DNA of 64,000 bases from Actinomycetes bacterium (GTDB taxonomy: Bacteria; Actinomycetota; Acidimicrobiia; Acidimicrobiales; Aldehydirespiratoraceae), in NCBI GenBank assembly GCA_024276495.1, contig JAJRXC010000036.1:1-64000 (forward strand). Reading direction: 5' to 3'. The notes beneath the pieces were generated by a model, which was not told the origin of the DNA, ran no database searches, and worked only from the letters and a program-made list of their open reading frames with translations. Positions 51,080 through 55,883 of this stretch are shown here, one piece after another (the first letter of the stretch is position 1; every line of letters starts with the position of its first letter). The position numbers were made by a program, and so were the translations under genes.

Positions 51080-52156
51080 GTGCCCGAACCCGTGTATCGA
51101 AAGCAGGAACAGGAACCGGCCTCCGAGGAGGTGCTCGAGGTCGCACCGGGAATCCTGCGGCTGCAACTCCCGATCACGATGCCGGGGCTCGGCCACGTGA
51201 ACACCTACGCGCTCGAAGACGAGCGTGGATTCGCGCTCGTCGACCCGGGCCTTCCCGGACAGGAGTCGTGGGACGCCCTGATGACACGACTGCGATCGGC
51301 CGGGATTCCACTGGCGAGGGTCCACACCACGATCGTCACCCACTCGCATCCCGACCACTTCGGCGGAGCCGATCAGCTCCACGAAGAGGCCGGGGCCGAG
51401 GTGCTGACCCACGAATCGTTCCGGTCCCTGGTGGCGGAGGCCAACGACGACATGGACACGGATCTTCTCGAGGCCGACGAGGAGGAGCTGGTCGAGCTCT
51501 GGAAGCACCGGTTCCGGTCATTCGAACCGACGCCGTGGGGCACCACCCGCGAGCCGCCGCCCGACGAGGCGATCCGGCGCTGGATCGTGATGGGCGAGGG
51601 TGGCCAGAAGCGGTTCCGTGGCCCGCAGCCGACGATCCGGGTGTCCGACGGGGAGGCCGTGCGTCTCGCCGGTCGGGACTGGTTCGCGGTCCACACCCCC
51701 GGCCACACCACCGACCATCTGTGCCTCTACGATCCCGAGGGCGGTGTGTTGCTGGCCGGCGACCACGTGCTGCCGACCATCACACCCCACATCGCCGGCT
51801 CGACCGACGTGGAGGACCCGCTGGCCACGTTCTTCCGTTCGCTGGAGAAGGTGGCGGCCCTCGACGGGCTGACCTGTGCCCTGCCCGCCCACGGCCATCC
51901 GTTCGAGGACCTGCGCGGCCGCTGCACCCACATCCGGGAACACCACGACGATCGGCTCCAGTTGCTGCGCGACGCCGCCGAGAGCCACCGGGACGCGCCG
52001 GTGCAGGCGTGGATGAAGGTGCTGTTCCAGGAACGTTCCTGGGGCGAGATGGCCGCCAGCGAGACCTACGCCCATCTCGAGCATCTCCGGGTCACCGGCG
52101 AGGCGACCGCTCGGCGCGACGACGCCGGGCTGGTGCGGTTCGACATCTCGGCGTAG
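51080..52156 (+). CDS. Metallo-beta-lactamase-fold hydrolase
   Basis: This 358-residue MBL-fold enzyme has the zinc motif THSHPDHFGGADQLH (HxHxDH) near residue 95, HTPGHTTDHLCLYDPEGG, and LLAGDHVLPTITPH. The C-terminal ~100 residues are a helical domain (IREHHDDRLQLLRDAAESHR) as in glyoxalase II/LACTB2-like proteins, which cleave RNA or thioesters. The LACTB2 type often acts on single-stranded RNA, and the orn gene is upstream, so an RNA role is possible. That is inference. The start is GTG 51080. Confidence 0.88.
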   Translation: MPEPVYRKQEQEPASEEVLEVAPGILRLQLPITMPGLGHVNTYALEDERGFALVDPGLPGQESWDALMTRLRSAGIPLARVHTTIVTHSHPDHFGGADQLHEEAGAEVLTHESFRSLVAEANDDMDTDLLEADEEELVELWKHRFRSFEPTPWGTTREPPPDEAIRRWIVMGEGGQKRFRGPQPTIRVSDGEAVRLAGRDWFAVHTPGHTTDHLCLYDPEGGVLLAGDHVLPTITPHIAGSTDVEDPLATFFRSLEKVAALDGLTCALPAHGHPFEDLRGRCTHIREHHDDRLQLLRDAAESHRDAPVQAWMKVLFQERSWGEMAASETYAHLEHLRVTGEATARRDDAGLVRFDISA

Positions 52157-52163
52157 ATCCGGT

Positions 52164-52916
52164 TCAGTCGTCGAGGGGACGGACACGGGCCACGCTGCCG
52201 GCCACTCCGTTCGTCGTGAGCCACGTGTCGACACCACCGTCGACCGCCCGCCATCGCAGGTGCACGTCGGTTCCCCGCTCGACCCCCGGCCCGTGCTCGA
52301 GCTCGGCGCGGATCGGTTCACGAACACATCCTTCTCGATCGAGCGCTTCCTCCACCGCCACCCATTGGGCCGCGTTGTTGACGTGGGCGAGCACATCGAG
52401 GTCGGCGAACCGGACTGTCCAGGGCGCGTCCTGCACCTGGTCGGGCCACCGGGTCGGGAGGGTGGTTCGGGCCGACACCCGGCGATCGCCGGCCGTCTCC
52501 CCCCACACCTCGAAGAAGTCGGGTGGAAGCTTCGCCGGTCGCCCCGTGACCCCGTCGACGAACACCCAGATCGTGCACCCGTCGACGACCGCCCCGTGCT
52601 CACCGCGAAGCTCGGTGCGCCGCTCCGCCCAGCGTCCGCCGTAGCCGCTGCACCATGTGGAGAGGTCGAGCCACTCCTCGAAGACCGGTGCCTGGCGAAT
52701 CTCGAGCAGGGTGCGGCGGACCACCCAGTTCATCGGATCCGACAGCGCGCTGTCGGCCGAGTCGTCACGGGCGACATCTTGGAGGTGCCGCACGAGGGCA
52801 TCGAGGCGACAGCGGCCCGTCGGGTCGACGTCGCCCAACCGGACCCGGCGCCCCGCCTCGAAGACACGGCCGGTGCGGGGCCGGGGGGACATGACTGCTG
52901 CTCCCGGGTCGGCCAT
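52164..52916 (-). CDS. Acyl-ACP thioesterase (FatA/FatB-like)
   Basis: This 250-residue protein has two hot-dog folds: the N-terminal RVRLGDVDPTGRCRLDALVR and LQDVARDDSADSALSD, and later DLDVLAHVNNAAQWVAVEEA with the catalytic Asn/His region (DxNxHxNN-type in plant FatA; here DLDVLAHVNN). Such enzymes release fatty acids from acyl carrier protein. The start is ATG 52916, with an alternative at 52892. It is convergent with the MBL gene and divergent from the WhiB leader region. Confidence 0.86.
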   Translation of the reverse strand: MADPGAAVMSPRPRTGRVFEAGRRVRLGDVDPTGRCRLDALVRHLQDVARDDSADSALSDPMNWVVRRTLLEIRQAPVFEEWLDLSTWCSGYGGRWAERRTELRGEHGAVVDGCTIWVFVDGVTGRPAKLPPDFFEVWGETAGDRRVSARTTLPTRWPDQVQDAPWTVRFADLDVLAHVNNAAQWVAVEEALDREGCVREPIRAELEHGPGVERGTDVHLRWRAVDGGVDTWLTTNGVAGSVARVRPLDD

Positions 52917-52962
52917 GGCCGCACCGTAGCGGTCACCATCAGGTCGTCCGCGGGAAATCCCG

Positions 52963-53001
52963 ACAATTCGGTTGACGGATCCGCCGGAGTCCGCCACGGT
53001 G
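52963..53001 (+). promoter_or_regulatory. Candidate autoregulated promoter of the WhiB7-like gene
   Basis: A -35 element TTGACG sits at 52972-52977, and an AT-rich ACAATT at 52963-52968 ends exactly three bases before it. WhiB7 is known to bind such AT-rich sequence just upstream of -35 through its AT-hook and to activate its own promoter. The -10 is weak (CACGGT at 52995-53000, 17-base spacing), as is common in activated promoters. Assignment is by pattern, with no transcription start known. Confidence 0.5.
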
Positions 53002-53039
53002 TGTTCTGCCGGAACGCCCGGCCGCGACAAGGAGTCGTC

Positions 53040-53192
53040 ATGAACACATTCATGTGCACTGCGCAGTTCGGCCTCGCCGCCCGCGCGCATGCGCGCGTGA
53101 ACGTGCGTACGGCCCTCGCCATCTCGACCTCGTGGGAGTTCTCCGCGAAGCCGTATGGCAACCGGCGGCCCTCCGGCGCTCCTCCCGGGTGA
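53040..53192 (+). CDS. 50-residue leader ORF (uORF) of the WhiB7-like attenuator
   Basis: ATG 53040 follows AAGGAG at a good spacing and encodes 50 residues beginning MNTFMCTAQFGLAARAHARV and ending NRRPSGAPPG. Its stop TGA (53190-53192) lies inside a stem-loop (53187-53207). Codons 41-44 (53162-53169) are complementary to the left arm of the downstream terminator. The peptide has no family. The layout matches translational sensing: ribosome position on this ORF decides which RNA structure forms. Confidence 0.72.
   Translation: MNTFMCTAQFGLAARAHARVNVRTALAISTSWEFSAKPYGNRRPSGAPPG
53162..53169 (+). promoter_or_regulatory. Antiterminator strand competing with the WhiB attenuator
   Basis: CCGGCGGC (53162-53169), inside the end of the leader ORF, is the exact reverse complement of GCCGCCGG (53231-53238), the left arm of the terminator. 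If free, it can pair with that arm and disrupt the terminator. A translating ribosome at the ORF end would cover it. This is a predicted pairing. Confidence 0.6.
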
Positions 53193-53207
53193 GACGACCT
53201 CTCACCC
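53187..53207 (+). promoter_or_regulatory. Stem-loop spanning the leader ORF stop codon
   Basis: GGGTGAGA (53187-53194) and TCTCACCC (53200-53207) form a perfect 8-bp stem with a five-base loop (CGACC). The uORF stop codon is within the left arm. Such stop-codon hairpins are part of whiB7-type leaders and would be opened by a terminating ribosome. Confidence 0.6.
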
Positions 53208-53229
53208 ACGAAAGGGGAGAACGCACCGA

Positions 53230-53263
53230 GGCCGCCGGAGATCCGGCGGTCTTTCTGCTTTTC
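53230..53263 (+). terminator. Intrinsic terminator inside the WhiB leader (attenuator)
   Basis: The stem 53230-53238 / 53243-53251 (GCCGCCGG with CCGGCGGT, plus a closing G-C pair) encloses an AGAT loop and is followed by TTTCTGCTTTT. This is a textbook rho-independent terminator in a very GC-rich genome where such T-tracts are scarce. It precedes the whiB start by 68 bases, so by default most transcripts should stop here. Confidence 0.8.
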
Positions 53264-53330
53264 GGGCATCGACAGACCAGCCACCGCAATGAACACACGA
53301 GCAAGACCCAACCGGGAAGGAGACGAGGTC

Positions 53331-53765
53331 ATGGGACCCCTCGTCGACATGCAATCCACCGACACACAACCGTTCACTTCGAACCTCACGCCACCGACGT
53401 TCACCTCCACGCCGTTCGGGGACACGGCACCTCTCCGAGATGCCACGTCCGACTGGGAGGTGCACGCGAGTTGCCGATCGGTCGACGACGCCGGGACGCT
53501 CTTCTTCAGCGAGGACATCGGCGACATCGCCGCGGCCAAGCGAGTCTGTGCCGCGTGCCCGGTGCTGGCCCCCTGCCTGGAAGGGGCGCTGGACCGGCGT
53601 GAGCCGTGGGGGGTGTGGGGCGGGCAGCTGTTCATGAACGGCAAGATGCTGACGGTGAAACGCCGCCGGGGTCGCCCGCCCAAGGTCGCCCGTCCCGAAG
53701 ACCAGATGCCGATTGTTCCGGTTCCCGACCATCTGGTCGCCCACGCGGAACGGCGCACGGCCTGA
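53331..53765 (+). CDS. whiB7: WhiB7-like iron-sulfur transcriptional regulator
   Basis: This 144-residue WhiB protein binds a [4Fe-4S] cluster with Cys48, Cys73, Cys76 and Cys82 (ASCRSVD, RVCAACPVLAPCLEG), followed by the beta-turn REPWGVWGG. The C-terminus carries an AT-hook, RRRGRPPK (RGRP at 113-116), which distinguishes WhiB7 from other Wbl proteins. The N-terminal ~40 residues are longer than in mycobacterial WhiB7. AAGGAGACGAGG precedes ATG 53331. WhiB7 binds the sigma factor and turns on intrinsic resistance to ribosome-targeting antibiotics. The leader ORF and terminator upstream fit its known attenuation control. Confidence 0.88.
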   Translation: MGPLVDMQSTDTQPFTSNLTPPTFTSTPFGDTAPLRDATSDWEVHASCRSVDDAGTLFFSEDIGDIAAAKRVCAACPVLAPCLEGALDRREPWGVWGGQLFMNGKMLTVKRRRGRPPKVARPEDQMPIVPVPDHLVAHAERRTA

Positions 53766-54041
53766 CGGGCTTCCTTCCACACCCGCCATCCATCTCCCCC
53801 GGCAGACGACGCCGGCGTGGTACCGAATCGACGAGTTCCCGAGGCCCGGGCAACGGCACACGCGAGCCCCGGCTTCGTCGTCGATCGGTACCACGCTGGC
53901 CGGTGCGCCGGCGGTCCGTCGATGTCGACCCGTTCGGGAACGTCGGGATCTGGACCGTCGCCGGAAGTCCGGGCGGGGTTTCGGGGTTTCCGGTCCACAC
54001 CGAGCGGCCATCGGGCCGCCCGAACGCCGCCGGGAGCGCCG
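53766..54041. other. Intergenic region after the WhiB gene
   Basis: No gene is supported in these ~276 bases. A terminator for the WhiB transcript and a promoter for the ccdA unit would be expected, but no clear hairpin with T-tract or -35/-10 pair was found. Confidence 0.35.
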
Positions 54042-54191
54042 ATGACCGACGAGGGGGACCCGACCGCCATCCGGTCGTCGACCGAGCCGACTACAGTTTC
54101 GGTCGATCCCGGTGAGAACATGGAGCGGGTCTGGTCCGGGGCCCTCGACACCGCTGCTCTCGTCGAACCGATCAACCAGGAGATCAACTGA
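54042..54191 (+). CDS. 49-residue acidic small ORF coupled to ccdA
   Basis: ATG 54042 opens a 49-codon frame (MTDEGDPTAIRSSTEPTTVS ... ENMERVWSGALDTAALVEP). GGGAG lies just upstream, and the stop TGA overlaps the ccdA ATG (TGATG at 54189-54193). The peptide is acidic with no membrane segment. The support is start-stop coupling only. No family is recognised. Confidence 0.42.
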   Translation: MTDEGDPTAIRSSTEPTTVSVDPGENMERVWSGALDTAALVEPINQEIN

Positions 54192-55309
54192 TGGGAATCT
54201 TTGCGTGGCCGTTCGGCCTCGGAATCTTCGCCGCTTTCAATCCCTGCGGTTTCGCGATGCTCCCGGCCTACCTGTCGTACTTCCTCGGTCTCGAGAACAA
54301 GGAGTCCGACCAGAGCCGTTTCACCACGGTGGCACGGGGGCTCGCCGTCGGCATCGTGATGACGCTCGGTTTCGTCGCGGTGTTCGGCACGTTCGGCATC
54401 TTGTTCGCCACCGTGATCAATCAGGGCACGGTGCTCGAATACGTTCCCTACGTCATCATCGCGATCGGCGTGCTGATGATCCCCCTCGGAATCGCGATGC
54501 TGCTGGGCAAAGACGTCCGGCTCAAGTTGCCGAAGATGAACAAGGGCACGGGGAGCCGCAGTCTCGGTTCAGTGTTCATGTTCGGGATGAGCTACGCCGT
54601 GGTCTCGCTGTCGTGCACGATCGGCATCTTCATCCCCGCGATCAGCCAGTCGTTCGCAACCGATGGCGTCGCCACCGGCACCGGCAACTTCCTCGCCTAC
54701 GCGCTCGGCATGGGGATCGTCATCACCTTACTCACGATGAGCCTCGCCCTGGCGAAATCGAACGTCGCCACCGGCATGCGCCGGATCCTCCCGTACATCA
54801 CGCCATTCTCGGGTGCCATGTTGGTTCTCGCCGGCATCTACATCATCGACTACGGGATCTGGGACTACCAGGTGACGATCGCCGGCAACCTCGACGCCGG
54901 CAACCTGATGGTCGATCAGTTCCTCGATTTCCAGGCGACGGTGAGCGCGTGGATCACCGACACGACCACCGAACGAATCGGTCTGGTCGCGCTCTTCGGC
55001 ATCATCGGCGCGCTCCTCGTCGGCTGGCGTGACGACGTCGACGATCCCGCGAAGAAGCTCGGCGCCACGTTCGCCTTCATCGGCACCTATCTCGGTGTGG
55101 AGGCGTACAACGGGGCCGACTTCGTGTTCTTGCCGCTCGCCCGTTTCATCGTCGGCTGGCCCCTGCGGGTCGTGCACTGGTTCACCGATCCCGCCCGTTT
55201 CGGTGGTCCCCTCGAGATCGCGTTCCTCGCGCTCGTCGGCTGGATCGCGTGGCGACGAATCGATCGCTATCGTCCGCAGCATGTTCAGGACGTTGTTGGC
55301 GCGACCTGA
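54191..55309 (+). CDS. ccdA: CcdA-type thiol-disulfide transporter
   Basis: This 372-residue membrane protein carries reducing power across the membrane for cytochrome c maturation and related thiol reduction. The core has the redox Cys in FAAFNPCGFAMLPAYLSYFL and in VVSLSCTIGIFIPA, with six helices in the first ~235 residues. The C-terminal ~130 residues add further helices (IGLVALFGIIGALLVGWRDD, LVGWIAWRRIDRYRP) and exceed the usual CcdA size (~220-240). The oxidase genes at 59-64 kb, including a cytochrome c domain, would need such a system. It overlaps the next gene's start by 29 bases. Confidence 0.88.
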   Translation: MGIFAWPFGLGIFAAFNPCGFAMLPAYLSYFLGLENKESDQSRFTTVARGLAVGIVMTLGFVAVFGTFGILFATVINQGTVLEYVPYVIIAIGVLMIPLGIAMLLGKDVRLKLPKMNKGTGSRSLGSVFMFGMSYAVVSLSCTIGIFIPAISQSFATDGVATGTGNFLAYALGMGIVITLLTMSLALAKSNVATGMRRILPYITPFSGAMLVLAGIYIIDYGIWDYQVTIAGNLDAGNLMVDQFLDFQATVSAWITDTTTERIGLVALFGIIGALLVGWRDDVDDPAKKLGATFAFIGTYLGVEAYNGADFVFLPLARFIVGWPLRVVHWFTDPARFGGPLEIAFLALVGWIAWRRIDRYRPQHVQDVVGAT

Positions 55310-55883
55310 GGTCACCGAGATCTGCGAGCTCCGGGGTCCGTTCGGGCTCATGGCGTTTCACGGCGGCAATCTCGAACGTTGCACCGACGTCATCGCCCGC
55401 GAGGTGGCCGAACGCACCGATTCGTCGCTCTACGCGGTCGTGCAGGCCCCACCGTTGCGCGAGCACATCCCGTCGACGGCGTTCGACCCGGCCCACTCCC
55501 CGGCGCTGGCGGCGTTCATCGGCCATGTCGACATCGTCATCGCCATCCACGGCTACGGACGCGAGGATCGCTTCTGGGACGTCCTGCTCGGCGGCCGCAA
55601 CCGCTCCCTCGCGACCCATGTCGGACACCATCTCCGCACCGGGATCGACGACCGTTTTGGCGTCGTCGAGGACCTCGGCGAGATCCCGGAGGAGCTTCGG
55701 GGCCAGCATCGCGACAATCCGGTGAACCTCCCCGACCAGGCCGGCGTGCAGATCGAGCTCCCACCGACGACACGGTGGAACCGAGAGGAGGCGGAGTGGT
55801 CGGACTGGCAGGGCACCGGTCGTGCCCCGCACGTCGAACGGCTCATCGAGACCCTCGCCACGGCCGTCGACACCTGGCCCTGA
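55281..55883 (+). CDS. Poly-gamma-glutamate hydrolase family protein
   Basis: This 200-residue zinc-peptidase-like protein has a FHGGNLERCTDVIAREVAER opening (His/Glu zinc ligands HxxxLE), IAIHGYGREDRFWDVLLGGR (third His) and a C-terminal EWSDWQGTGRAPHVERLIET, the pattern of phage and bacterial poly-gamma-glutamate hydrolases (DUF867). The usual active Glu position cannot be fixed by eye. The start ATG 55281 lies inside the ccdA end, so they are coupled. No capsule genes are nearby, so the substrate is open. Confidence 0.82.
   Translation: MFRTLLARPEVTEICELRGPFGLMAFHGGNLERCTDVIAREVAERTDSSLYAVVQAPPLREHIPSTAFDPAHSPALAAFIGHVDIVIAIHGYGREDRFWDVLLGGRNRSLATHVGHHLRTGIDDRFGVVEDLGEIPEELRGQHRDNPVNLPDQAGVQIELPPTTRWNREEAEWSDWQGTGRAPHVERLIETLATAVDTWP

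Follow-up and report, generated by a model that had tools for sequence, protein, structure and literature searches.

The leader of a whiB7 gene in the window (the whole 64-kb stretch of DNA that was analysed, from a bacterium of the class Acidimicrobiia; features are on the + strand unless stated otherwise) very probably works as a transcription attenuator in which the position of the ribosome on a leader ORF determines the choice between two pairings, that of a strand within the ORF (P) with the left arm of an intrinsic terminator (L) and that of L with the right arm of the same terminator (R). We infer this mode of working from the sequences, which show the parts, how they are spaced, that they are conserved and that P covaries with L. 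The protein features, the architecture, the promoter element, the conservation and the covariation support the WhiB7-type attenuator proposed in the initial annotation of this DNA. Judged from sequence, this appears to be a real and conserved whiB7 attenuator, that is, a known mechanism in a new lineage, which is solid but not surprising; the points of interest are the strand-specific covariation and the recurring hairpin across the leader stop codon. No report of a whiB7 attenuator in Acidimicrobiia was found in the literature searched, and the primary Streptomyces paper (Lee 2022) lies outside that search.

The gene behind the leader (53331-53765) encodes a WhiB protein of 144 aa that matches PF02467 at 7.1e-17, with no NCBIfam match up to 0.01. 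The protein contains the four invariant cysteines, the G[IVL]W[GA]G turn with EPW beside it (REPWGVWGG) and a C-terminal RGRP AT-hook (KRRRGRPPK), which are the features that an excerpt of PMC10727445 uses to describe WhiB7, and by its sequence it appears to fit this definition. The source genome contains six WhiB-family loci, and among the five readable loci with the four-cysteine pattern, RGRP is present only in whiB7. A match at E 1e-8 or better is found in 279 of 296 class-level relative genomes, a count that includes other WhiB paralogs. The nearest named relative is Acidimicrobiales bacterium DHS20C19 (L077), with 70% identity. In some genomes of the same order, two adjacent WhiB7-like genes are located approximately 1 kb apart (G002:C1:680003-681201, G157:C1:3753947-3755203 and G027:C1:4345976-4347326).

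The start of whiB7 is most likely the ATG at 53331, which follows the Shine-Dalgarno sequence GGGAAGGAG (53314-53322); L077 retains a Shine-Dalgarno sequence and an ATG corresponding to 53331, and GGAAGGAG is present in L077, L079 and L080. The ORF opening at 53289 was rejected as the WhiB start, as L077 has no ATG matching that position. A hairpin, GACGAGG..CCTCGTC (53322-53345), carries the start codon in its loop; it is also found in L077, L079, L080, L008 and L010 and is absent from seven more distant relatives read alongside; L078 and L012 gave no start. This hairpin could tune translation, or it could merely mirror a conserved Leu-Val. The surrounding genes encode a metallo-beta-lactamase-fold hydrolase (51080-52153), an acyl-ACP thioesterase (52167-52892, minus strand), a DsbD-like membrane protein (54191-55306) and a poly-gamma-glutamate hydrolase family protein (55191-55880).

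Upstream of the leader, the arrangement AATT-CGG-TTGACG (52965-52977) places an AT-rich element 3 bp ahead of the -35 box, which is the motif given for WhiB7 ChIP-seq in M. abscessus in the excerpt of PMC10727445. The region had initially been started at 52963, and the element falls just inside this limit. GTTGAC is aligned across nine close relatives, and in 25 of 60 representatives it lies no more than 170 nt from the leader start, compared with 5% of shuffles. A weak candidate -10 box, CACGGT (52995-53000), follows the -35 box by 17 nt.

The leader ORF (MNTFMCTAQFGLAARAHARVNVRTALAISTSWEFSAKPYGNRRPSGAPPG) comprises 50 codons from the ATG at 53040 to the TGA at 53190-53192 and is preceded by the Shine-Dalgarno sequence AAGGAG (53029-53034), which is similar in close relatives; both the ORF and its strong ribosome site are thus as initially described, and they lie upstream of a Rho-independent terminator. 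For comparisons across species, representatives were chosen as WhiB7 cores less than 80% identical, and short leaders were dropped (n=60). Under a strict ORF test (ATG or GTG start, 40-95 codons, a Shine-Dalgarno sequence and a stop 23-38 nt before L), 43 of the 60 possess such an ORF, compared with 2.2% of shuffled leaders; under loose criteria, some ORF ends in the right zone in 125 of 125 leaders tested. P ends 16 nt before the leader stop in 26 of 66 representatives, 19 nt before it (as in the window) in 8 and 13 nt before it in 7, and P lies in one main reading frame in 46 of the 66, these counts including L056 and L075, in which the left arm was misplaced by the fallback pattern. Alanine accounts for 9 of the 50 leader residues in the window and for a mean of 15.7% over 66 representative leader peptides; the title of a 2024 paper suggests the sensing of alanine shortage in mycobacteria.

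The terminator (GAGGCCGCCGGAGATCCGGCGGTCTT; 53228-53263) consists of a stem of 11 pairs (53228-53253) followed by the tract TCTGCTTTTC, in agreement with the terminator first placed at 53230-53263. Its left arm L is GGCCGCCGG (53230-53238) and its right arm R is CCGGCGGTC (53243-53251). It is the sole terminator-like site within 52500-54200; shuffled sequences yield a mean of 0.9 such sites, so the scan by itself is no evidence, and the case for a terminator, as read from the sequences, rests on conservation. Of 131 leaders placed in Acidimicrobiia, 126 have a terminator hairpin of this kind ahead of whiB7, whereas no recognised attenuator was found upstream of the other five whiB7-like genes placed in the class (L038, L069, L098, L167 and L171). 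The leaders were taken as the DNA before the first cysteine codon, which gave 166 unique sequences, 133 of them placed in Acidimicrobiia and 131 of sufficient length after removal of L072 and L137. Of the 131, 73 were placed by genome kinship code and 58 by record title or similarity; among these 58 named records, some with titles that give only Actinomycetota or with odd names (three Bifidobacterium breve and one Terriglobia) were placed by similarity, without a tree. L171, from a genome of the same order, sat among the outgroups in the hexamer tally, the motif search and the Streptomyces stop reading described below, and is counted as a miss in the 126 of 131. By the method used, no terminator was found in four Brachybacterium whiB7 leaders (L126, L130, L133 and L135). 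The U tract of the window terminator is imperfect, which counts against the attenuator model.

Strand P, CCGGCGGCC (53162-53170), lies inside the leader ORF over Arg-Arg-Pro codons and is predicted to form nine pairs with L (duplex z -4.1, matched by none of 100 shuffles). The perfect complementarity reported for an 8-base strand at 53162-53169 is therefore retained, and the strand is extended to nine bases. The overlapping sequence of the ORF and the terminator thus provides a predicted antiterminator pairing. Additionally, a motif search that was blind to pairing, covering the stretch 28-82 nt upstream of L in each of 67 representatives, returned CCGGCGGCC as the best motif, which is the exact complement of the consensus L. 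Nested between P and L, the fold places a helper stem formed by CTCCC (53182-53186) and GGGAG (53215-53219), and similar letters are seen by eye in several close relatives in an alignment of nine.

The sixth base of L varies between C and T, and its partner, the fourth base of P, varies between G and A. The P base is A in 15 of 19 representatives with T in L, compared with 10 of 45 otherwise (Fisher p 4e-5, with the tree ignored). In the terminator, the same L position faces G in 124 of 126 leaders (96 C-G and 28 T-G) and A in L037, with L016 unread, as seen in folds without a letter constraint, the earlier anchor itself having demanded G at this position. The change from C to T therefore maintains Watson-Crick pairing in the antiterminator, and the terminator is left with a wobble; since just one of 125 readable leaders lacks G at this position of the right arm, it is the competing pairing that covaries. 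The pair counts leave out L038 (a false anchor, with no attenuator), L056 and L075, so that they cover 123 of 126 leaders and 64 of 67 representatives. In the hexamer tally, CCGACG, which matches the T-type left arm, is present in 17 of 28 T-type leaders, compared with 4 of the 65 C-type leaders and 2 of the 15 CT-type leaders; the leaders' own complement hexamer is found in just 17 of 65 C-type leaders (CCGGCG), which counts against the model, and in 6 of 15 CT-type leaders. L037, which was unanchored in the hexamer tally and the motif search and was included in the unconstrained fold count, forms a T-A pair in the terminator and does not exceed shuffles in P-zone pairing, which likewise counts against the model.

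The initial annotation had held that the attenuator would be refuted if the two competing stems showed no covariation in relatives. The covariation of P with L persists when 16 pairs on disjoint paths of a quick WhiB7 tree, with branch support ignored, are compared (9 in the expected direction, 1 opposite and 6 tied; p 0.02). On supported branches alone, four independent pairs are available, with on average 3.0 in the same direction and 0 opposite, a number of pairs at which significance is unreachable and the result is not significant. A second covarying position (P2/L6) is not significant in the representatives (p 0.34).

The proposed mechanism would begin with RNA polymerase starting at the WhiB7-dependent promoter, with a ribosome trailing it on the leader ORF. 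Under brisk translation, the ribosome would be over or just past P as L emerges, leaving P unable to pair; L would then pair with R, and transcription would end near 53260. If a drug or an amino-acid shortage stalled or slowed the ribosome in roughly the first 36 codons, P would be free to pair with L before R is made, and the polymerase would read into whiB7, whose product may then strengthen its own promoter.

Folding with and without a ribosome footprint had been suggested as a check of this scheme, and whole leaders folded at equilibrium do not reproduce the switch. In full-length folds of the 60 representatives (those without an anchored terminator were dropped from the fold sets), the terminator dominates with or without the ribosome, with a mean L:R of 0.90 without it, and an early stall raises P:L above 0.2 in just 16 of 60, the window included. 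When the transcript ends before R, the mean pairing of L with the P zone is 0.81 without a ribosome and 0.80 with a ribosome held at 40% of the ORF; the value is 0.24 after the last 20 leader codons are shuffled (lower in 60 of 60), 0.06 with the ribosome on P and 0.35 with the ribosome at the stop. Since the terminator wins at equilibrium even without a ribosome, the decision would have to be made during transcription, and the switch must be kinetic.

It was previously proposed that a ribosome reaching the leader end covers the antiterminator strand. In the window, this holds for a ribosome positioned 3 or 6 codons short of the stop, which abolishes P:L in transcripts ending before R, whereas a ribosome at the stop only abuts P, which ends 19 nt upstream. 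Occlusion of P by the terminating ribosome appears in these models to depend on the trailing edge: with the edge 14, 17 or 20 nt behind the P site of a ribosome at the stop, the mean P:L is 0.38, 0.19 or 0.06, and the values for the window are 0.91, 0.11 and 0.0002. With the ribosome at the stop, P:L still exceeds 0.5 in 22 of 60 representatives in transcripts ending before R, which counts against the model.

The leader stop codon is spanned by a hairpin of 8 pairs (53187-53207), which confirms the hairpin initially noted at this site. An alignment of nine close relatives (MAFFT) had made it seem unique to the window; this reading was rejected, as the arms are unaligned there and a scan anchored on the stop found stems in most representatives. 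With a stem score of at least 12, the scan finds a hairpin in 45 of 64 representatives, compared with 25% of shuffles, 23% of sequences with halves swapped between species and 39-53% when centred elsewhere in the leader; with a score of at least 14, the values are 29 of 64 (45%), 11%, 12% and 22-30%, respectively. Stems at the stop are thus clearly more frequent than in shuffles and swaps, and modestly more frequent than elsewhere in these GC-rich leaders. The letters vary widely (for example, CGGCTGAACCAGCCG, GTAGCGCCTCCGCTAC and TGACGTAACACCAACGTCA), and in Streptomyces leaders stems such as CCTGAT..ATCAGG are seen by eye across the stop codon. When the stop hairpin alone is masked, P:L changes from 0.80 to 0.75, which indicates that the hairpin is not needed for that pairing in silico. 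It is conceivable, if rather doubtful, that the hairpin contributes to the switch and has been maintained through compensating changes, both across Acidimicrobiia and in Streptomyces. It might make RNA polymerase pause until it is melted by a ribosome reaching the stop, so that the two are synchronised before L and R are made. If this is true, a pause hairpin would explain why P ends just behind the terminating ribosome.

A different use of the leader ORF would be an arrest peptide, in which the nascent leader peptide, and not general slowing, halts the ribosome at a particular codon and so sets read-through. Close relatives share a KPY...RP.G.PPG-like C-terminal end of the leader peptide, and pS exceeds pN in 20 of 22 close leader pairs, a comparison made without an other-frame control that points to weak constraint on the peptide. 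Across families, however, the peptides differ greatly while P and its spacing are conserved; 20 of 66 representatives have P in another reading frame, the covarying change in P is synonymous (CGG/CGA) in the main frame, and known whiB7 genes respond to structurally unrelated inhibitors, according to the excerpt of PMC10727445. An arrest peptide is thus unlikely.

The P:L complementarity could also be a by-product of GC-rich sequence, with a constitutive terminator and whiB7 controlled at the promoter alone. Complementarity may well arise by chance in a GC-rich leader, since the P-zone pairing falls outside the best 5% of shuffles in 34 of 67 leaders, and the terminator is the equilibrium state in the folds. 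Against this, P covaries with L and hardly ever R, the pairing is lost on codon shuffling in all 60 representatives, and the ORF stop keeps a narrow spacing from the terminator, which makes a constitutive terminator very improbable. A structured leader ahead of a regulator gene also recalls a leader that binds a small molecule or tRNA (a riboswitch or T-box). Rfam at the gathering score returned 0 families across the whole window, and in the 43 of 60 representatives noted above, the ORF with its Shine-Dalgarno sequence stops within a narrow range of distances from the terminator; such a leader is extremely improbable. The attenuator governed by ribosome position is the preferred reading, and for it the leader strand, which covaries with just one of the two terminator arms, provides sequence evidence of the antiterminator that is independent of fold prediction. 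The natural P/L variants can guide tests.

Excerpts of PMC11550727, PMC4128351, PMC13236596, PMC12421871, PMC13393426 and PMC10727445 describe or mention that whiB7/wblC of mycobacteria and Streptomyces is controlled through a leader ORF together with a terminator. As described in excerpts of PMC4128351 and PMC13236596, the mycobacterial whiB7 leader has the same leader ORF with a Shine-Dalgarno sequence, a stem-loop with a T-rich tail and attenuated transcription; transcription data exist for that leader, whereas the window is known from sequence alone, and the likeness is one of description. The ilvB1 attenuator of M. tuberculosis (excerpt of PMC13236596) uses the same masking of a leader strand by the ribosome to decide between antiterminator and terminator. 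It senses specific branched-chain codons, whereas no comparable run of control codons is seen by eye in the window leader.

The closest description is that of Streptomyces coelicolor wblC/whiB7 (Lee, Lee and Roe 2022, Mol Microbiol 117:179), which, as described in papers that cite it, has the same leader ORF and Rho-independent terminator with whiB7 behind them and the same antiterminator formed from the overlapping sequence of the ORF and the terminator. In the Streptomyces leaders L152, L155 and L156, the leader ORF stops 24 nt ahead of the terminator stem, and a hairpin spans its stop codon as it does in the window. The letters differ in this other class, with the left arm GGCCGCGGAA and the leader end ..MWAFRGLEPWSDP. 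in Streptomyces, compared with GGCCGCCGG and ..RRPSGAPPG in the window. The same layout in other letters, present in 126 of 131 Acidimicrobiia leaders, suggests that the control of whiB7 by ribosome sensing is older than the split of the classes or was passed between them.
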